Shown here piece by piece: positions 45,222 to 55,804 of a stretch of 64,000 bases of DNA. Positions within the stretch are counted from its first letter, which is position 1. Every line of letters starts with the position of its first letter. A model generated the notes under the pieces. That model was given only the letters and a program-made list of their open reading frames with translations. It ran no database searches and was not told where the DNA came from. The DNA is from Chlorobium sp. (GTDB lineage: Bacteria; Bacteroidota; Chlorobiia; Chlorobiales; Chlorobiaceae). The DNA lies in the NCBI GenBank assembly GCA_005862225.1, contig SZXV01000002.1:558001-622000 (forward strand), read 5' to 3'. A program made the translations under genes and the position numbers.

Positions 45222-46042
45222 TGATTTTTCTTCTCTTGCTGGTTGAAAAAATGCTTCAAACGATCCAGAAACAGGACCCTGTTTTCAAGCTGCAGGGTAT
45301 GGCCGCAATGCGGAAAGATTTCAAGATCGGATTCAGGAGATAACTTAACCATTTGGTGACCAATCTCAACGTAGCGCTCATCTTTTTCTCCCGTAAAAAA
45401 GCTCACCGGCACACTGTTGTTTTTTAACTCTTCCCAGAATGACGGCTGTCGTCCTGTTCCCAAAAGCCTCAACGCCAGAGCGAGGTTCTGAGGGTCGTTG
45501 ATTTTTCTTTCGCTCTCAACCTCTTTGAAGATCGGATGACTTTTGAGTGTGGCGAAGAGAGGCTGTTCATACCAGGCCTCAATAAAACTGGCAAAGCTCC
45601 GTTCAATTTTCCGGGCCACTTTTTCGTCATGCTCCTGCCGGTCGATGCGCTCTTTCTCTGTTTTGATCCCCGGTGAAGCAGAGATGATAACCGCCTTGCT
45701 GAAGAGTTCCGGGTGACGAAGCAGCAGCGCAAGGGCAATACGGCCACCCATCGAATAGCCCACCAGAGAGCAGGGTGTTGAGGCTGATTGGCGCAGGAGA
45801 GCCGCAAGCGCGTCAACGGTCTGGATAAAAAAATCTTCTGGTGGTTGCGTTTGCAGGAGGTTGGCGCTCCCGTGGCCTGGAAGATCAACCATCATGCAGC
45901 AATAGTCGTTCTGAAGCTCCCTCGTCACGGGAAGCCAGTCGCTGCCTGAGCCGAGAAAGCCGTGCAGAAAGACGATGCGCGGCAGGGATGGGTTGCCGAT
46001 GGTGATGGTGTGGAAAGGGATGGCGTTTATGGTTGTTGGCAT
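45218..46042 (-). CDS. menH: SHCHC synthase (MenH), alpha/beta hydrolase
   Basis: 274 residues. [43 protein letters not shown] (nucleophilic Ser in GYSMGG), FTGEKDERY (Asp) and [11 protein letters not shown] (His) form the triad of the MenH family, which eliminates pyruvate from SEPHCHC. It starts the distal part of the men operon, facing the inserted block at 46211-53959. In an uninterrupted operon menD would lie directly upstream. Confidence 0.92.
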
Positions 46043-46210
46043 TGGAAATGGTGTGGATGGTGTTGTGATGTTGATTTGAATAACTTGTTGTATTATTAAT
46101 TTACTATTTTTTCCTCACGGTTTCGTGTGGTCTTGAACCATGATTTAAGGATCATTTGATTGCATGACAGGAGATTGCGAAGTGTTTGTCTAACCGGTAA
46201 ACCTTTATGT

Positions 46211-47479
46211 ATGAAAAAGGTAGCTAACTTCATCAATCATGAATATTACAGAGAAGCGCTTGCTCGCCTCTGTCGTATTGCTCAACGGTCAGCCCACGAC
46301 GAGCGACTTGTGCTTGATGATTGGGAAAAGCTGCATTTGAGTAATTATCACAGCAGTGAGGAAAAAGCTCATACCATCAAGCAGGTAATGGAGCGTTTCG
46401 GTAATGATGCGTTTATCATTTTATCTGATGAAATCGAAAAAGATCCCTTGCTTTGGTTTCAGGCGGTTGATGAACACTGCAATCGCATATTTGGCCCAGA
46501 CAGCATTTTGCCGCATGACAAGATTGATGATGGCGATGGAGAGTCAATAGTGCTTCCGATTTATCCGGGATTCGGTGGCGGTAAACGACGCGAACAATAT
46601 GGAAATACAGCATTTTGGCTTAAGCACCATCGAGTAATTCCGCTCAATGCACCTCTGTCTGTAGCCGAGATTCCACAAGGCTATAAGGATTGGGCAACCC
46701 AACACTTGATTGGTGAAATGGTCAAGATCGCCATTATCCATTTTGCTGACGGGAGTTATCCAATAACCAGAGATAGTTCTATTCAGTCATTTGTCTTCAA
46801 TGACCTGAGTGATGAGGCAATTCGCCTCGAAAAAGCGCTTGAATGCATCCGCGCAGCCAAAAGTGAGGGGGCACATATCCTTGTGATGCCGGAGCTTACG
46901 ATAACCCCGGTAATTCGCTTGAAAATTACCAATAAACTTGATCTTTTGAATGAAAAGGAGGGTGAGAATCATGCCCTTTCAGTTCCTGTCATTGTACTCG
47001 GAAGTTTTCATGAACAGGTTGAGATGGGGTTGCGAAACCATGCAGAGGCGATTCTTGGGCTGGACGGCACTTACCTTTTCGGTTGTGACAAACGTAGATC
47101 TGTCACCTTCAATAATTGCAGGGAAGGTATTGAATGCGCCTCTACGCCATTGACCTGTTTACTGACACCTCTCGGATTAATGGCTATGGCTATCTGCAAG
47201 GATATGTTCGATGGAAAACCAGCCGCAGCTTTGTCTTCACTATCTCCCGACTGGCTGCTGGTTCCGAGCATGAGTGAAAAGCTGAACCCGCATAGAGCGG
47301 CGGCCAAACAATTGCATGATACGGGAGGAACCGTCGTTGCCGTTGCTAATCAGGAGATGCCCGGAATCAAAGGTTATGATCCGGGTTTTGTACATCACGA
47401 AGAACGTGAGGATTGTACAACTGATATGATGTTTGTAACTGTGGCTCGAAAAGATAATCATCTCAGACGCATCAAATAG
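46211..47479 (+). CDS. Nitrilase-superfamily (carbon-nitrogen hydrolase) protein with extra N-terminal domain
   Basis: 422 residues from the ATG at 46211; a TTG at 46160 with AAGGAT seven bases before it is a real alternative and would add 17 residues. Residues 1-170 match nothing I know. From about 172 (VKIAIIHFAD) the nitrilase fold follows, with the Glu-Lys-Cys triad visible: ILVMPELTI (Glu228), FGCDKRRSV (Lys294) and AMAICKDMF (Cys329). The family hydrolyses nitriles, amides or carbamoyl groups. It is the first of three forward-strand genes between menD and menH; no amine or nitrile pathway is near, so a role with the large NTPase downstream is inferred. Confidence 0.8.
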   Translation: MKKVANFINHEYYREALARLCRIAQRSAHDERLVLDDWEKLHLSNYHSSEEKAHTIKQVMERFGNDAFIILSDEIEKDPLLWFQAVDEHCNRIFGPDSILPHDKIDDGDGESIVLPIYPGFGGGKRREQYGNTAFWLKHHRVIPLNAPLSVAEIPQGYKDWATQHLIGEMVKIAIIHFADGSYPITRDSSIQSFVFNDLSDEAIRLEKALECIRAAKSEGAHILVMPELTITPVIRLKITNKLDLLNEKEGENHALSVPVIVLGSFHEQVEMGLRNHAEAILGLDGTYLFGCDKRRSVTFNNCREGIECASTPLTCLLTPLGLMAMAICKDMFDGKPAAALSSLSPDWLLVPSMSEKLNPHRAAAKQLHDTGGTVVAVANQEMPGIKGYDPGFVHHEEREDCTTDMMFVTVARKDNHLRRIK

Positions 47480-47558
47480 TCGCTGTGGAAGAATTTTTTA
47501 TCCATTAAATAATGTTAAATTATTTTTTGAGTCTAAAACCTTAGAACTGTTTAGTATT

Positions 47559-48194
47559 ATGGACGCGCTCAATTTGAACGTCAGTGACCCGGCAATGCTG
47601 GTCGACCGCTCAACAGCAGCGGAGCTTCTTGCTGCCATCCGTTCACTCGATACATGGAATGAAACCGCACTGAAAGTAGCCAACCGCCTTATATCGGTCT
47701 GGTCGGCGAGAGCTATTGCTGGCGCAGGCGATCGCGAAGGGATATCGGAACTGCAACGTATTATCCATTATGCCCTTAACCGGGCAAATTCAATTGCTAC
47801 TCTCCCGGAAGAGTTTCGATACCGATGGCAGGAGGCCAGTGATATGCTTGAAGCGAGGCGCCTCAATCTTGCTCATGCCAACCCGGAGGGGCAACTCAGC
47901 CGCCTTCATGTTGACAAAATTATTCGATTGCTCTTCAACGCCGGTGGGCGTGAAATGAGTCAGTCAGAACTTGCAAGTCGTCTTGATGTCAAATTAACCT
48001 CTGGACGTATCACCCAGCTTCTCGGGCCGCTCGAAGCCCATGGTTTGATAAGCAAAAGAAAGCATGGACGCGACAATCTGTTGCAGCTTACAGAAACAGG
48101 GCACACGATCGCTGAGCAACAGGAACGCAAGAGTGGCTCCACTGACAATCATAATCCTGAACGGGCTGGGAGCTATCTCAGGAAAAGCGCATGA
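47559..48194 (+). CDS. Winged-helix protein with helical N-terminal domain
   Basis: 211 residues. The N-terminal 110 residues are predicted helical (LLAAIRSLDTWNETALKVANRL and similar) without known motif. Residues about 118-190 read as a MarR/IclR-like winged helix: VDKIIRLLFNAGGREMSQSE, then LASRLDVKLTSGRITQLL (recognition helix) and LEAHGLISKRKHGRDNLLQL (wing). The last 20 residues are polar. Its stop overlaps the ATG of the giant protein by four bases, so the two are made together. It could be the regulator of the block or an adaptor; the N-terminal domain is not that of a classical MarR protein. Confidence 0.75.
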   Translation: MDALNLNVSDPAMLVDRSTAAELLAAIRSLDTWNETALKVANRLISVWSARAIAGAGDREGISELQRIIHYALNRANSIATLPEEFRYRWQEASDMLEARRLNLAHANPEGQLSRLHVDKIIRLLFNAGGREMSQSELASRLDVKLTSGRITQLLGPLEAHGLISKRKHGRDNLLQLTETGHTIAEQQERKSGSTDNHNPERAGSYLRKSA

Positions 48195-51100
48195 CGCCAT
48201 TCATCGTCACCTTCTACAGCTACAAGGGCGGTGTCGGGCGCAGCCTGCTTGCCGCCAATATTGGTGTTCTCACTGCTCGCCGAGGCAAAACGCTGCTGTG
48301 GGATCTTGATATCGAAGCGCCAGGATTGCACAACATTCCGGGGCTGACACCATCAAGGCCTGTCAAAGAGGGTTTTTTTGAATGGATGATTTCATGGCAG
48401 GAGTCCGGAAAAGCATCGAACAAAGCTGATTTCGGCAAACTTGTCAAACTCGCTTGTCAGACGCCTGAGCGGGATCGTCTGTTCATCTTGCCTGCTTATG
48501 GCGACAACAAAGACTTCGCAGGGCTTTTCCAGAGCATTCGCTGGGATGATTTCCTGGTTCGTGACCTCGACAGCGGTCTTGCGCTCTTTCGTGGTATCCT
48601 TGATTCTTTTGGCAAGGCTGGATTTGAAACAGTGCTGCTTGATTCGCGTACCGGTATCACTGACATTGGTGGTCTGCTTGCCGCTCTGTTGTCATACGTC
48701 ACTGTTCTTGTCGGAAATTACGGGAAGCAGAATACCAGAGGACTTGCCCATGTCTGGCAAGCCCTTCAACCGGCCAGCGAGGGGCGCATTCCAGCGCGAG
48801 GTTCATTGCCACCCCTGACTCGGTTGCTGGTTGCATCGCCGATTGCTGATGAACTTGATTTGCGAGCCAAAGGAGAGGAGATCTGGAAGGAGTCCTTTGG
48901 CCTGGTTCCTGCAGAATTGGTCACCATCCCTTTTGATCAGCGTCTGCTCTTCACTGAGGAGCTTTACGCAGCAACACGCCCTGATACTCCGGTTGCCAAA
49001 GCCTATAACGATCTGGAACGTCGAATCGACAAGGTACGCCAGCAGGTAATTGCCGAGAACGAGTCAGCCCGCAGCAACAAAGATAGTCGTGCGCAAGGAA
49101 AAAGTTTCGAGGTGCGAGTTGCTCACCTTTTGCGTCTGCTTGGCTACACCGTCGAGCACGAACAGTTGATCGACAGCAACCGGGTCGATCTTGTTGTACG
49201 CAAACGTGCCGATTTCGGGCGCGAAGAACTTTATTTTGTTGAGTGCAAGGATCATCAGGTCGTCATTCCAAAAGAGACAGTGCAGGTATTCAAAACCTGG
49301 CTTGATGGCCCTGCTGCCAGAGCAATGCAGGCTCGTGGTATGGTGGTTGCTCCAAGCGATTTCAGTCCGGCGGCCCGCAGCTTTGCGCTGGAGCAGGGAA
49401 TCCAGGCGCTTACCTTCGATGAACTCGAACGCAGTCTCTTTGATTTTTCACCCTACCTTGCCCGCATTCGCCAGCGCTACGAAGCAAGTGCTCTTGCAGG
49501 CAACTATGTTGACCAGTATCTGCTTCTTGAAAAGCAGCCCGATGAAAAACCGGTGCCGATGTTGCCTCATGCCCTTCAGTGGGTTTCGGGAGCGGGAAGC
49601 CGGTTGTGGCTTGTGCTCGGTGATTATGGTACCGGCAAAAGCACATTGGTTGAGCGATTTGCCTACGAACTTGCCTGCAACTGCAAAAACGATCCCGAAA
49701 GCCCGATTCCGGTCGAAATCAATCTGCGTCAGTTTCCCAACGCCATCTCACTCGATAGCCTGATTCGCGAGCATCTCGAAACCGAACTGCGCACTGTGCT
49801 TAATCCAGAGATTGTGCTGCACCTGCTCGAAGCAGGGCGCGTGGTACTCCTGCTCGACAGTTTCGATGAAATGGGCGTTGCACAGGCGGGACGCAGTGTC
49901 GAAGAGCAGTTCCGCCAACTGGCCCATCCAACAGCCAACCCTAGTCGCAACCCGCGCGGCAATCGGGTGCTTATTACCTCACGCAGCCACTACTTCTGCG
50001 ACAACAGCAGCGCCAGGCAAGCCATGCAGGATGGCGACAAGCTCTTTGAAGCGGATTTAGCTCTGGGCAAAGCAGCACGTGCCTTCGATGCTATGCGCGA
50101 TACCCTGGCAGTTTTCACACAGGAGCAAATTGCAGAGTACTTGCACAAACGTCTTGGTATGGTCGAAGGCGACGAAGCTCGACGTTTTATCGAAGAGAGA
50201 TATGGGCTTCAGGATATCGCGTCAACACCCCTGTTCCTCGATATGATTGTAGCGTCTCTTCCTGATCTGATAAAACAGGGAGAGAACGTGAGCACAGGTT
50301 CACTCTACCTGACCTACACTATCCGCTGTTTGAATAGCATTCGCTGGAGCCAGGGCAAGCTTAACGTCGAGCTTATGCGCGACCTGCTTGAGCGCATGGC
50401 CTGTGAGCTGTGGAGCAGGCCACGAAACCAGATCCACTATACCGATATCGCCGCACTGTTGCATCGAGGGGCTGGAGTTGCCCGCAGCCTCGACAGTGAG
50501 CAGGTCGACCTCGAACTGCGTACAGTCTCTTTCCTTGTGCGCAGCGCTGATGGCGATTATCGTTTTTCACATCGAAGCTTCCTTGAATTCTTTTTTGCCC
50601 AAGCACTTTTCCGTGCTCTCCAGGAAGGTCATTTCGAAAAAGCTCTGACCTATGGCACTATCAATCCCGAAGTCACCACATTTCTGCTTGACCTGACTGA
50701 GTCAGCGCCTGAGAATTCCGATAAACTGACCGAAGTCATTCGTACAATTTTTGCAAACCCATATAATGAAAGCACTTCAAAATTCAGGCGGTTCCTGAAT
50801 TTGATGCAAAATAATACATCCACTACGCCGCTTGATTTCAAGGGAGTTATGGTTTCGAGCACCTTCACCGACCTGAAGGAGCACCGTGCTGCACTGATCA
50901 ACATCATTGATCGTTCAGGGTTTAAGGCTGTGGTGATGGAGCATGATTCTGCCAGGTCTGACGTGGATGTTATCGACTCTTCGCTTCGGATGGTGCAGGA
51001 TAGTGCTGCGTATATCCTTGTCATCAGCCACAAATATGGGCAGACACCGGTGTGCACCAGCCGGAATCCCGGCAAGCTTTCAATTACCGAGCTGGAGTTT

Positions 51101-53959
51101 AACGAAGCAGTGCGGCTTCGAAGGCCAATTCTGCTCTTTATTATGGGTGAAGATCATGCGATAAAGAAGAGTGACATTGAAAAAGATCCAGAGAAGGAAG
51201 CCTGGTTAAATGCCTTCCGTGAGCGGGCGAAGAAGATGGGGCCCGATTCGGCGGTTCATCGTGTTTATGCCGAGTTCAACAGCCTTGATGAGTTCAAGGA
51301 CAAGGCAGCTAAAGCCATATTCGATCTTCGACTTGTTTTTCACAAACCCGATACCGAACCTTCTGTTGGCAAAGGAACAACACAACCCGATGACAAAAAA
51401 CTTAAAGCTGACGCAGCGTGTTACCAGAACATCCTCAAAGAGGAGTTGGGTTACATCCGTATGCTTGGGCTTCCGGGCATTGAAAGCATTAAGGTCAACC
51501 TGAACAACGATACCTTTGTGCCCTTGCGTCTTTCTGACAGGCAGGAGAGAGTTGGCCCTGTTTCAAAAGAGGGCGACCAGCAAGGGAGTGAACATGTTCT
51601 CTATCCTGATGAGATCATGAAGCAGGCTTTCCACGACCGGCGAGGTCGCCGGATGCTGCTCGTTATCGGCGACCCTGGCGCAGGCAAAACAACGCTTCTC
51701 AAGTATTATGCCCTTTCTGCGATTGATGATTACACGAAGCTTGGATTCAGCGCTCCAGTCAACGTTTTTTACCTGCCCTTGCGTGACCTTGTCCGCGACA
51801 AGGAGGGGCGTTGCACAGAAAAGCTGCCAGCAACCCTTGCCGCCTGGTCAGAAAAACATCATCAACTCATTGATGCAAAGGTTTTCAATGACTGGCTGAG
51901 CAATGACAGCTCTCTTGTGTTGCTTGACGGTCTTGATGAGATCAGCAATACGAATGAGAGAAGAGAGGCATGCTGGTGGATTGACAGCGCCTTCAGCGGC
52001 TTCAGCAAGGCCTTTTTTGTGGTGACATCCCGGGCGACAGGGTACCGCAAAGATGAAGGTATTGAGCTTGAGTCAGAGTACGAACGAGCCGATGTGCAGG
52101 ACTTTACTGCGGCGCAGCAGGAGCGGTTTTTGCGAAACTGGTTCAGTGCAGCATTTCTCAAAGAGCCTTGTGAAAAAGGATTTGACGAAGAAAGGTGGCA
52201 GGAAAAGCAAAAAGCAGAGGCCGAAAAGCGCACCACCACCATTGTTGCGCATCTCAAGGCAGAAAAGAACAAGGGCTTGCGTCAACTGGCTGCTATTCCC
52301 ATGATTCTGCAGATCATGGCTATTTTGTGGAAGGATAGAGACTACATGCCGGAAAGTCGTGTGAAACTTTACGAAGCCGCGCTCGATTATCTGCTTGAAT
52401 TCCGCGACAAACGCAGAGATATTAAACCGCTGCTTTCTGCGATTGATGCCCGACAGGTGCTTGGGCCGGTTTCGCTCTGGATGCAGGTGATGCTCAAAAA
52501 AGATGAAGCGGCAAGAGCCGATATGCACACTCAAATGCAGGAGTGGCTTGATACGCTTGATACTCCACCAACAGCAGAAGCATTTTGTGACTATCTGGTC
52601 AAACGAGCAGGTTTGCTGGTTGAGACAGGCGGCAAAGAGTACCTCTTCAGGCATAAATCATTCCGGGAATATCTCGCTGGTGTTCAGCTCAAGGAAGACC
52701 GTCCGTATGAGCACATCAATACGCTGGTTGCGAATTTTGGTAATGACTGGTGGGAAGAGCCACTCCGCTTTTTTATTGCTTCGGTTGATGCCAGAGTGTT
52801 TGATGCTTTTATGGCAAAACTCTTCGATTCTCCACAAAGTGACGAGATGACACCAAAACAGCAGTTGTTATTGCAGACAATCATTGAAGAGGCAAAAGGA
52901 AAAAAAGTTGACGCATTGTGCAAAAGGTTGCTTGAACCGGCGACAACAGCCAGTCGGCAGCGGGTGATTCTTGACTGTCTCAAAGCCATCAATAAACCGG
53001 CAGCTCTTGGTGCGTTGCTGGAGTTCCGGGAGAAAAAACTTGCCGGAGAGAGGGACATTATCAATCGCACTGAGGAGGTGATTCTGGCGCTCGGAGGTCA
53101 GCTACTGGCTTCAAAAGCTGAAAAAAGTGTCAGCGGGAAACCGGCTTCGTTCCGTAATCCCAATGAACAAGGTGCGGAGTACATCCTTATACCGGGCGGA
53201 AGCTATATCTATTCGGTGACAGAAAAGGAGGAGCGTGTTGAGGATCTCTATGTTGCCAAATATCTTGTAACGAATCGGCTTTACCGCCTTTTTATTGCAT
53301 CATTGCAGCAAAAAGGCACTCCAACGCAGCCACTCGTTACGGAGCTCAATATGATCGCCAAAAACAATAGTTGGGGAAAAGACTTTGGGAACTATCTCAA
53401 CGAGGGTAACAACGATCTTGCCGCTCTGTTTCGTTCTCAATATGATGAAGATCGCAAGTTCGGCTGGGAAGATCAGCCGGTGGTTGGCATTACCTGGTAT
53501 GCCGCACAAGCCTACTGTCTCTGGTTATCACTTTTTGAGCGCAATCAGCCACCGTATCGCCTTCCGACCGAGATTGAGTGGGAGTGGGCCGCCGGGAGGA
53601 AGCAAGGCGCCACCGCAGAGAAAGTTCGCAACTATCCCTGGCGTGACGAGAAGGGTGAGCCCAACTCAACACTTGCTAACTACAATAATGATATCAGAGC
53701 AACAACCCCGGTTGGTAACTATCCTGACGGGGCGACACCTGAGGGGTTGTACGATATGGCAGGCAATGCGTGGGAGTGGATGATAAATGTACATGAAAAA
53801 TACGCTCCTGCCCGCGCGGTGCGCGGCGGTTCGTGGTACAGTGATCCCGGCGTTCTGCGTTGCTCTGCCCGGGACCTCAACAGCCCGGCGCTCAGGTTCA
53901 CCAGTGTCGGTTTTCGGGTTGTCCGTCCCAGTCATCTTCCTGAAGCTCCGGCAATCTGA
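48191..53959 (+). CDS. Giant conflict-type protein: KGGVGR ATPase, PD-(D/E)XK nuclease, NACHT, DUF4062, NACHT, FGE/lectin fold
   Basis: 1922 residues in one frame. 1-290: ParA/MinD-like ATPase with variant P-loop YKGGVGRSLLAANIG, DLDIEAPGL and LLDSRTGITDIGG. 300-415: Mrr-like nuclease, FEVRVAHLLRLLGYTVE, DLVVRK, YFVECKD (Asp333, Glu351-x-Lys353). 470-800: NACHT, GDYGTGKST and VVLLLDSFDE. 884-985: DUF4062, VMVSSTFTDLKEHRAALI. 1155-1500: second NACHT, GDPGAGKTT and LVLLDGLDE. 1658-1913: SUMF1/FGE-type fold, LPTEIEWEWAAG, YDMAGNAWEWM, RGGSW...GFRVVR. NACHT-STAND proteins switch on nucleotide binding after sensing a trigger, so a sensor-switch-nuclease role is likely. The FGE part has one Cys (1891) near its end, not a catalytic pair, so it is probably a binding fold. 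Looks like a fusion of two NACHT proteins at about residue 880. Confidence 0.88.
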   Translation: MTPFIVTFYSYKGGVGRSLLAANIGVLTARRGKTLLWDLDIEAPGLHNIPGLTPSRPVKEGFFEWMISWQESGKASNKADFGKLVKLACQTPERDRLFILPAYGDNKDFAGLFQSIRWDDFLVRDLDSGLALFRGILDSFGKAGFETVLLDSRTGITDIGGLLAALLSYVTVLVGNYGKQNTRGLAHVWQALQPASEGRIPARGSLPPLTRLLVASPIADELDLRAKGEEIWKESFGLVPAELVTIPFDQRLLFTEELYAATRPDTPVAKAYNDLERRIDKVRQQVIAENESARSNKDSRAQGKSFEVRVAHLLRLLGYTVEHEQLIDSNRVDLVVRKRADFGREELYFVECKDHQVVIPKETVQVFKTWLDGPAARAMQARGMVVAPSDFSPAARSFALEQGIQALTFDELERSLFDFSPYLARIRQRYEASALAGNYVDQYLLLEKQPDEKPVPMLPHALQWVSGAGSRLWLVLGDYGTGKSTLVERFAYELACNCKNDPESPIPVEINLRQFPNAISLDSLIREHLETELRTVLNPEIVLHLLEAGRVVLLLDSFDEMGVAQAGRSVEEQFRQLAHPTANPSRNPRGNRVLITSRSHYFCDNSSARQAMQDGDKLFEADLALGKAARAFDAMRDTLAVFTQEQIAEYLHKRLGMVEGDEARRFIEERYGLQDIASTPLFLDMIVASLPDLIKQGENVSTGSLYLTYTIRCLNSIRWSQGKLNVELMRDLLERMACELWSRPRNQIHYTDIAALLHRGAGVARSLDSEQVDLELRTVSFLVRSADGDYRFSHRSFLEFFFAQALFRALQEGHFEKALTYGTINPEVTTFLLDLTESAPENSDKLTEVIRTIFANPYNESTSKFRRFLNLMQNNTSTTPLDFKGVMVSSTFTDLKEHRAALINIIDRSGFKAVVMEHDSARSDVDVIDSSLRMVQDSAAYILVISHKYGQTPVCTSRNPGKLSITELEFNEAVRLRRPILLFIMGEDHAIKKSDIEKDPEKEAWLNAFRERAKKMGPDSAVHRVYAEFNSLDEFKDKAAKAIFDLRLVFHKPDTEPSVGKGTTQPDDKKLKADAACYQNILKEELGYIRMLGLPGIESIKVNLNNDTFVPLRLSDRQERVGPVSKEGDQQGSEHVLYPDEIMKQAFHDRRGRRMLLVIGDPGAGKTTLLKYYALSAIDDYTKLGFSAPVNVFYLPLRDLVRDKEGRCTEKLPATLAAWSEKHHQLIDAKVFNDWLSNDSSLVLLDGLDEISNTNERREACWWIDSAFSGFSKAFFVVTSRATGYRKDEGIELESEYERADVQDFTAAQQERFLRNWFSAAFLKEPCEKGFDEERWQEKQKAEAEKRTTTIVAHLKAEKNKGLRQLAAIPMILQIMAILWKDRDYMPESRVKLYEAALDYLLEFRDKRRDIKPLLSAIDARQVLGPVSLWMQVMLKKDEAARADMHTQMQEWLDTLDTPPTAEAFCDYLVKRAGLLVETGGKEYLFRHKSFREYLAGVQLKEDRPYEHINTLVANFGNDWWEEPLRFFIASVDARVFDAFMAKLFDSPQSDEMTPKQQLLLQTIIEEAKGKKVDALCKRLLEPATTASRQRVILDCLKAINKPAALGALLEFREKKLAGERDIINRTEEVILALGGQLLASKAEKSVSGKPASFRNPNEQGAEYILIPGGSYIYSVTEKEERVEDLYVAKYLVTNRLYRLFIASLQQKGTPTQPLVTELNMIAKNNSWGKDFGNYLNEGNNDLAALFRSQYDEDRKFGWEDQPVVGITWYAAQAYCLWLSLFERNQPPYRLPTEIEWEWAAGRKQGATAEKVRNYPWRDEKGEPNSTLANYNNDIRATTPVGNYPDGATPEGLYDMAGNAWEWMINVHEKYAPARAVRGGSWYSDPGVLRCSARDLNSPALRFTSVGFRVVRPSHLPEAPAI
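53837..53917 (+). other. Segment resembling a diversity-generating-retroelement variable region
   Basis: The 27 codons after GGSW up to GFR follow the spacing of lectin-fold variable regions (three variable, x, two variable, x-R-x-x-x-R, four variable, P-x, one variable, R, three variable, x-GFR). At the 13 positions where template repeats usually carry AAC/AAT, this gene has tac, agt, gat, ggc, gtt, gac, ctc, aac, agc, ctc, ttc, acc, agt, all NNY as adenine mutagenesis would leave. The consensus is from memory, and no reverse transcriptase or template repeat is in the window. Confidence 0.45.
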
Positions 53960-54052
53960 TCTCTGGATCTCTGAAAAAAAAGAGCTTCGGTTTAAGGTGA
54001 ACTCACATGGGGAGATTGAATTTTTTTGTGTGTGTGAAAGGGAAGGTCACAA

Positions 54053-55804
54053 TTAAGCATCGAAATATTCTGCCACAATCCCCATAATCTTCCCCCGCAA
54101 AGCACGGTGCTGAAGCACATTCTCCACTCGCGAACTCTTCACCTCAAGAACAATGCTCCGGGGACTTCCACAGGCCGCACGGTACACTTCGCTGAATTCC
54201 CGGTTGGTTTGCGGGCAGGCATAGTCAAGCCCGAAGGTCTCCGCCGCTGAGCGGACACTGTAGTTCTGTGGCGTCGCAAAGTGGGTTTCAAAAACATCCT
54301 GACATTCTGACACCGGAAGAAAGGAGAAGATGGCGCCTCCGTTGTTGTTCAGGACGATGATCTGTAGCGGAAAGGGGAGTGTGCCGAGCAGCGAAAGGGC
54401 GTTGAGGTCGTGCAGGAAGGCGATGTCGCCGATCATCAGTGTTGACGGTTTCTGGTGTCCATTGGCAAACCCGGCAGTGGTGGAGATGATGCCGTCAATG
54501 CCGCTGACTCCACGGTTGATGGCTGTTGGAATACCGTTAGTGTGGCTGCTGCTGGCGTAGTTGTCCATATCCCTGACTGGCATACTGTTTGAGACAAAAA
54601 GCACCTGTTGCTCCGTGATAAGCTGCGAAACAAGCCGGGCAGCCGAGATATCGGTGACCGGTTTGTCGGGCAGAAGTTCGGTTTGAATCTCTTCCGATAC
54701 GGTTCTGAACAATCTTTCAGATGTGTGGATGTCGAGCTTTGGCGGGGTGGCGCGACACCCTTTAAACTGAGCTGCGGTCAGAGCAATTGAGGCTTCAAGA
54801 CGGCAGGTGACGTTATGGTCGGGGGAAAAGCGGGCAGGTTGTGGCTTGACGACAATGTAGTGTGCGGGTTGCCACTCTTTCAGCGCTGTGGACGGGTGTT
54901 TTGCAATGACACTTCCACCAAAGTGCAGGACAAGGTCAGCCTTGAAGGCTTTCCGGAATTCAGGTGACTGGATCAGGAGTTGCCAGGGCTGTACCGAGGC
55001 AACCATTCTCAGGCCGGATGAAAAATCGGCATAGAGTGGAATGTTCAGATCGTTGGCCAGTTCACTGACCGCCAGGGCATCGGTACGGCTCGTCATGCCA
55101 CCGGCAATGATCATCGGTTGCTTTGCCTCTCTGAGCAGTTGGCGCAGCATGGCGATGGTGCCTGCATCGGGCACTTTTTCGGGGATTATTGAACGGCAGC
55201 ATGGCTTGCCATGTTCAAGCCAATGCTGAAGTGGAGCGACCCAGGGATCGTTCAGATCCGGAGTTGCCGGTTCAAACGGTTCACGGAACGGCTGGTTCAG
55301 ATGGACCGGGCCTGCGGACTCTCCAAGAGATTTTGCAACAGCATAAGCTATTGTCGAAAGGAGCGCGTTCAGCGGAGTATCTGTTGAGGGCGCAGGCAAC
55401 TGCATGTTCCATCGGGTATAGCTACCGAAGATATTGTCCTGCCGGATGGTCTGGTTGGCGCCGCATTCAAGCAGTTCGAAAGGGCGGTCGGCAGAGAGCA
55501 CAATCATCGGCTGAAAGTCTGTTGATGCCTCAACCACAGCGGGAAAGTAGTTCGCGACGGCTGTGCCTGAGGTGCAGATCAGCACAGCAGGTTTTCCGGT
55601 TGCCCTTCCGTATCCGAGTGCAAAAAAAGCTGCGGAGCGTTCATCCACAAACATTTTCCATTGCGCTTTCGGATTTCTTGCAATGGCAATGGTGAGTGGT
55701 GTCGAGCGTGAACCGGGTGAAATGCAGAAAAATCCTGCGCCCTGGCGAATCAGCTCTTCAATAATGATGCTGCTCCAGAGTGAGGTGATTTGCTGGTTGT
55801 TCAT
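54053..55804 (-). CDS. menD: SEPHCHC synthase (MenD), thiamine-diphosphate enzyme
   Basis: 583 residues from the ATG at 55804, which overlaps the menF stop by four bases; a longer in-frame start lies inside menF. The N-terminal domain has FFCISPGSRSTPLTIAIARN, VDERSAAFFALGYGRATGKP with the ThDP-activating Glu, and ICTSGTAVANYFPAVVEAS. The C-terminal ThDP/metal site has MIGDIAFLHDLNAL and IIVLNNNGGAIFSFLP. It joins isochorismate and 2-oxoglutarate. The next men gene (menH) is 8 kb away because of the inserted block. Confidence 0.95.
   Translation of the reverse strand: MNNQQITSLWSSIIIEELIRQGAGFFCISPGSRSTPLTIAIARNPKAQWKMFVDERSAAFFALGYGRATGKPAVLICTSGTAVANYFPAVVEASTDFQPMIVLSADRPFELLECGANQTIRQDNIFGSYTRWNMQLPAPSTDTPLNALLSTIAYAVAKSLGESAGPVHLNQPFREPFEPATPDLNDPWVAPLQHWLEHGKPCCRSIIPEKVPDAGTIAMLRQLLREAKQPMIIAGGMTSRTDALAVSELANDLNIPLYADFSSGLRMVASVQPWQLLIQSPEFRKAFKADLVLHFGGSVIAKHPSTALKEWQPAHYIVVKPQPARFSPDHNVTCRLEASIALTAAQFKGCRATPPKLDIHTSERLFRTVSEEIQTELLPDKPVTDISAARLVSQLITEQQVLFVSNSMPVRDMDNYASSSHTNGIPTAINRGVSGIDGIISTTAGFANGHQKPSTLMIGDIAFLHDLNALSLLGTLPFPLQIIVLNNNGGAIFSFLPVSECQDVFETHFATPQNYSVRSAAETFGLDYACPQTNREFSEVYRAACGSPRSIVLEVKSSRVENVLQHRALRGKIMGIVAEYFDA

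Follow-up and report, generated by a model that had tools for sequence, protein, structure and literature searches.

A two-NACHT fusion protein of a Chlorobium whose lectin-fold tip appears to be rewritten in trans by a distant DGR

How can one bacterial protein come to carry a nuclease, two NACHT switches and a lectin-like tip, and what might that tip recognize? The question is raised by gene 3 (48191..53959; 1922 aa) of a Chlorobium sp. (GenBank assembly GCA_005862225.1), found in a 64,000-nucleotide stretch of contig SZXV01000002.1 (positions 558,001 to 622,000) that is called the window here. All features placed below by window coordinates lie on the forward strand. An initial annotation had read gene 3 as an uninterrupted open reading frame of six conflict-system modules with two NACHT switches. 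Profile searches and motifs confirm the list and its order in a single ORF without internal stop: KGGVGR ATPase, Mrr nuclease, NACHT1, DUF4062, NACHT2 and FGE/C-type lectin.

The N-terminal KGGVGR deviant-Walker ATPase of ParA/MinD fold (48197..49045, residues 3-285) is assigned from its predicted fold and from profile NF047398 (KGGVGR-motif ATPase), which matches residues 3-192 with 107.8 bits against a cutoff of 90. Residues 1-290 of the predicted front half match ParA/MinD (VIA Z 23.4, rmsd 2.9 Å, 247 aligned). ATP hydrolysis by this domain is uncertain because an Arg stands in its loop, K12GGVGR17, where the Walker Lys is usual. The Mrr-type PD-(D/E)XK nuclease (49091..49432, residues 301-414; Mrr_cat PF04471, E 3e-14) has D333 followed by E351-C-K353. 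These three residues, already named in the initial annotation, are intact, and together with the KGGVGR residues and G477, G482 and K483 of NACHT1 they are invariant in 18 sequences with identity down to 43%, a set that includes Desulfobacterota and Burkholderiales MAG relatives at 43-47% identity. NACHT1 with its helical arm (49559..50785, residues 457-865) is weak at the level of Pfam and sequence profiles. The assignment is accepted because the motifs (Walker A GDYGTGKST, 477-485; Walker B LLLDSFDEM, 553-561) and a NOD2/NLRP3-like predicted fold (Foldseek match of the predicted front half, E 1e-8) back it. A sequence-profile search of solved structures with the front half returned ParA/MinD-type and related P-loop relatives only; for the nuclease and for NACHT1 it yielded no solved structure.

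The back half opens with the TIR-like domain DUF4062 (50846..51109, residues 886-973; PF13271, E 3e-18). Its motif SITELEF (964-970) is also present in stand-alone back-half copies, and Glu967 or Glu969 within it is a candidate catalytic residue. NACHT2 (51650..52150, residues 1154-1320; PF05729, E 3e-27) has Walker A GDPGAGKTT at 1160-1168 and Walker B LVLLDGLDEI at 1242-1251; PF05729 matches two separate stretches of gene 3, of which 1154-1320 is the best. The domain search that had been proposed as a check recovers both the nuclease and this second NACHT. The FGE-sulfatase/C-type lectin domain (53180..53926, residues 1664-1912; PF03781, E 5e-36) is the putative sensor, and its profile matches TvpA (2y3c), a DGR variable protein, with E 4e-18. 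The structure model of the back half is poor, with a mean pLDDT of 57.

Two further genes complete the block to which gene 3 belongs. Gene 1 (46211..47479) encodes a divergent nitrilase-fold (CN_hydrolase-like) protein with a weak match to Pfam PF00795, which is at or above its cutoff in the relatives L149 and L147. The Glu-Lys-Cys triad is kept (E228, K294 and C329, numbered from the Met at 46211), and none of the 12 sequences compared, with identity as low as 24%, departs from it. Gene 2 (47559..48194) encodes a winged-helix (MarR/DUF7343-like) protein (PF24034, E 6e-8), shares 4 bp with the beginning of gene 3 and is a conserved neighbour in relatives. The order of nitrilase-fold gene, winged-helix gene and KGGVGR-Mrr-NACHT gene is common to loci of Chlorobi, Desulfobacterota and Burkholderiales and, judged from sequence comparison, the front half of gene 3 is part of a three-gene system with nitrilase-fold and winged-helix proteins. 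The term KGGVGR was absent from the literature searched, and no description of a KGGVGR-Mrr-NACHT/nitrilase/WD40 system was found in the titles and abstract beginnings covered. PADLOC returned weak partial matches and no complete system, and a plasmid search with the locus as query gave no match.

The six modules were proposed by the initial annotation to derive from a fusion of two stand-alone types near residue 880. This holds, with the position nearly right: the junction is at residues 866-872, inside the stretch of linker and former start placed at 50786..50824 (residues 866-878). Front-half homologues, matched at 85-93% identity in congeners (green sulfur bacteria, uncultured Chlorobiaceae MAGs), align through residue 865, after which comes the linker RRFLNL, common to the fusions with small changes. 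The next residue, Met872 (50804), is the former start of the back half; in the alignment it coincides with the initiation codon of the back-half gene in its stand-alone form (MPNDTSTMPRDFKG versus MQNNTSTTPLDFKG). The complete in-frame fusion is found in four congeneric species, namely the source genome, G022, G011 and G079. Front-half and DUF4062 genes are separate and adjoining in G067, G074, G077, G013, G005 and G017, the front half alone was seen in G023, and the back half alone in G036, G012 and G027. The front gene is shortened inside NACHT1 in G013, G017, G074 and G005. The shortened genes (L033:6165-8165, L034:704-2725, L124:8013-10034 and L035:3236-4960) end near residue 660 and adjoin a separate back-half gene, with no downstream trace of the remaining NACHT1.

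Pentapeptide repeats and WD40 propellers come after the front half in G077, in L134 and in Chlorobaculum-type, Desulfobacterota and Burkholderiales relatives. The G033 contig with the back-half gene also has a WD40 tail, at its end and upstream of that gene. By sequence comparison, the original sensor of the front half is taken to be a pentapeptide/WD40 propeller tail. Since such tails are present in distant lineages, the fusion would have swapped one sensor for another. In the simplest history, the front half lost its WD40 tail in one group of Chlorobium-like species, together with the DNA separating it from the next gene (DUF4062-NACHT2-FGE), which thereby became continuous with NACHT1. Fission of an ancestral long gene is disfavoured: WD40-tailed front halves occur outside the group, and the linker keeps the old start of the back-half gene. 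Many near-identical repeats make up the WD40 tails of L125:7244-9859 (G077), L134 and L149; such repeats may vary in number, which would be a second possible route to sensor diversification.

Where contigs are long enough, front-half and back-half loci flank menaquinone genes, and in G020 (L177) the site is empty, with menD directly followed by menH. The menH/menD junction (window 46042-54053) looks like an insertion hotspot, holding the whole operon, parts of it or nothing depending on the congener. In several congeners, the stand-alone DUF4062-NACHT2-FGE gene is followed by a pair of large unidentified ORFs, of about 600-630 and 720-876 aa (L121:51-4102, L122:10751-15270, L124:1-3302 and L127:347-4788).

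The C-terminal tip is linked to a cassette elsewhere in the genome. A whole-genome protein search returned an unexpected 44-residue match at C4:536169, inside a 49-aa open frame, which is a DGR template (G000:C4:536170-536297) outside the window and about 75 kb upstream of the variable repeat (VR) of gene 3. The template is placed between a reverse transcriptase (RT; C4:536509-537543, 345 aa, RVT_1 E 1.5e-18, YVDD motif) and a 111-aa bAvd protein (Avd; E 4.8e-21), and two NACHT-FGE target genes adjoin the cassette. The VR occupies the last 128 bp (53808-53935), with variable codons mainly at 1883-1906; the sole Cys near the C-terminus of gene 3 sits among them. The VR departs from the template at 18 of the 30 adenines and at none of the 98 other positions (hypergeometric P 2e-14). 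In the template, most of the variable codons read AAY, in register with the ORF, and the theoretical number of VR variants is about 10^17.6.

A genome-wide pattern search, in which A was replaced by N and three mismatches were allowed, gave exactly four matches, the template and three VRs, and 0 matches with a reversed-pattern control. The VR of gene 3 agrees with the two local VRs at 97/97 non-adenine positions, and the flanks are only 64-80% identical to those of the local targets (69-72% over 450 bp upstream, 64-66% over 60 bp downstream). Compared with a congener's template it shows 9 non-adenine mismatches, and with its own it shows 0. Homing in trans is indicated by this identity of the non-adenine positions with the resident template and local VRs next to diverged flanks. 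Between species, 0/30 template adenines and 9/98 and 20/98 other bases have changed, the pattern that selection on the adenines would produce. An independent replicate is provided by the fusion of G022, which lies on a different contig from its RT; its VR differs from the template of its own genome at 12/24 adenines and 0/64 other positions. The VR of the G079 fusion fits the template of its own genome in the core, with a 3-bp insertion relative to it, and no template was found for the VR of the G011 fusion.

Gene 3 thus has the marks of a DGR target, namely an adenine-only VR, an RT/Avd/template cassette in the genome and a VR at the C-terminus of an FGE/lectin fold. Taken together, the comparisons show an FGE tip that is a DGR variable repeat, apparently rewritten solely at template adenines and in trans. 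The domain also seems to have moved as a unit: between the source genome and G022 the first part of the FGE domain is only 59% identical but the rest of the back half 90-98%, a pattern read as block-wise exchange of the whole FGE domain between orthologous fusions (L029 versus window 53168-53956). This suggests recombination importing a domain that fits the resident DGR template. The annotation's proposal that the C-terminal fold does the sensing gains weight, and its modules and fusion stand; it missed the DGR VR, whose cassette lay outside the window, as well as the back-half paralogue family, the TIR-like nature of DUF4062 and the pentapeptide/WD40 ancestor.

With two Walker A/B sets and an N-terminal effector with intact Mrr residues, gene 3 fits a STAND/NLR-like layout. 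It is probably a STAND-type (NLR-like) defence receptor, made of two joined proteins, with a sensor diversified in trans by a DGR and two candidate effectors. In the proposed mechanism, the FGE/C-type-lectin surface would bind an invader-derived ligand, upon which NACHT2 and then NACHT1 would change nucleotide state and oligomerize. The switching would activate the Mrr nuclease for DNA cleavage, with the ParA-like domain perhaps guiding the nuclease to DNA or holding DNA near it. It may also activate DUF4062, leading to NAD+ depletion, and the infected cell would be killed or arrested. A 2026 preprint (PMC13174449) describes DUF4062, both in bacteria and in TEP1, as a TIR-like NADase; for that reason the domain is probably a second effector and not a neutral module. 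Because the DGR rewrites the sensor, many variants of it would already be present in a population when infection comes. The data suggest a bacterial receptor able to rewrite its own recognition surface. A more ambitious reading, held tentatively and at somewhat less than even chances, is an anticipatory, self-diversifying receptor in which a single chain holds two switches in series and two means of killing, DNA cleavage and loss of NAD+, and in which a sensor that a genome-wide DGR network rewrites in trans has taken the place of a fixed WD40 sensor.

The reality of the fusion and the continued rewriting of its tip each have to be weighed against alternatives. An assembly or sequencing artefact joining two genes is hardly credible. 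Both halves do exist as separate genes in congeners, a state that the initial annotation had coupled with a sequencing error here as grounds for rejecting its reading; the split homologues were found, and the error is excluded because four separate species assemblies carry the same in-frame fusion and linker. It is improbable, too, that gene 3 is a relic target, diversified in the past by a cassette that no longer acts on it and left with a fixed FGE domain. The distance of about 75 kb and the missing G011 template would suit such a relic; the variation seen at the VR is between targets and between species. The cassette nevertheless has an open RT with Avd and template present, its adenines are conserved across species, and neither the perfect non-adenine match to the resident template nor the full agreement with the local targets between diverged flanks would be expected of a tip left behind.

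Two other alternatives accept the fusion or the variation and question what they are for. The halves could act separately, with internal initiation at Met872 also yielding the back half alone and the fusion functionally incidental. The old start codon is preserved in 4/4 fusions and adjoining separate genes persist in six congeners, but all four species keep the linker in frame and no clear ribosome-binding site precedes Met872, as is also the case for the stand-alone back-half genes; on balance, independent halves are unlikely. A role outside defence is doubtful to a similar degree. Green sulfur bacteria can form consortia, and gene 3 could be a regulatory or self/non-self receptor, for example towards consortium partners whose ligands the FGE domain would bind. 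Some bacterial DGR targets are indeed surface or ligand-display proteins (PMC8144416), while the coupling of NACHT modules to a TIR-like domain and an intact nuclease is the layout of antiphage STAND proteins, and no membrane segment stood out in gene 3. The reading as a diversified defence receptor is preferred.

Several known systems share parts of this design. Avs/bNACHT proteins have the same order of effector, STAND NTPase and C-terminal sensor, and nuclease effectors are known in the class. The sensors of characterized Avs/bNACHT members are fixed, and we know of no characterized member with two NACHTs or with a sensor rewritten by a DGR. TvpA of Treponema denticola is, like the tip of gene 3, an FGE/C-type-lectin DGR variable protein; unlike gene 3, it is surface-displayed and has no NTPase or nuclease. 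In TEP1, NWD1 and NPHP3, DUF4062 adjoins NACHT as it does in gene 3, which keeps the Glu-containing motif, and in Swarozyc a short auxiliary domain binds the phage portal where gene 3 has NACHT2 and FGE after its putative NADase DUF4062 (PMC13174449).

The closest counterparts of the back half are the nSTAND-CLec proteins of the Thiohalocapsa PB-PSB1/clade 5D DGRs, with NACHT and a C-terminal lectin/FGE domain carrying the VR (Dore et al. 2024, PMC10907252). In the available portion of that paper, NACHT-lectin DGR targets are proposed as antigen sensors, each DGR has several targets, and some remote ones match the distant template at all non-adenine sites. The targets described there have one STAND domain and N-termini that are uncharacterized, peptidase or TIR, whereas gene 3 has two NACHTs and two candidate effectors, with a complete nuclease-NACHT protein of another system in front. 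One DGR with 2-4 VRs has been reported from the green sulfur bacteria Pelodictyon phaeoclathratiforme BU-1 and Chlorobium phaeobacteroides DSM 266, and the part of that account at hand does not describe a fusion architecture or distant trans targets (PMC3521204). DGR-FGS domains have been tied to conflict systems (PMC7159879). DGR-diversified NACHT-lectin sensors are thus already known, but the architecture of gene 3 appears new; the literature searched gave no description of a two-switch protein in which a complete nuclease-NACHT system is fused to a self-diversifying sensor.

The locus is of use in two ways. The output of a diversified sensor becomes directly testable, since the sensor and an apparently intact nuclease are parts of one polypeptide, and the existence of split, WD40-tailed and fused states in relatives would make the locus a record of the swap of a fixed sensor for a self-mutating one. 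With its cassette 75 kb away, gene 3 moreover belongs to a class of DGR target that a large metagenome survey, by its own account, has no means of detecting with its method (PMC8144416).

The back half has a wide distribution of its own. Four paralogues besides gene 3 were found by whole-genome protein search of the source genome, making five, and the family is present in 38/61 congeners with up to 14 copies each and many different N-termini. RTs related to that of the cassette were matched in 51/61 congeners, where the weaker matches may be other types, such as group II introns. The paralogues at L002 and L005 were considered as targets of the template of gene 3 and rejected; L002 belongs to a second, different DGR of the source genome (G000:C4:268674-272072; L002, L040, L184 and L185), with its RT at C4:269435-270271 and its template at C4:270469-270575. 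This second DGR has four VRs, of which two are local with 0 mismatches at specified positions, and two are remote, at C4:168117 and C3:58579, with 2 and 3 mismatches.
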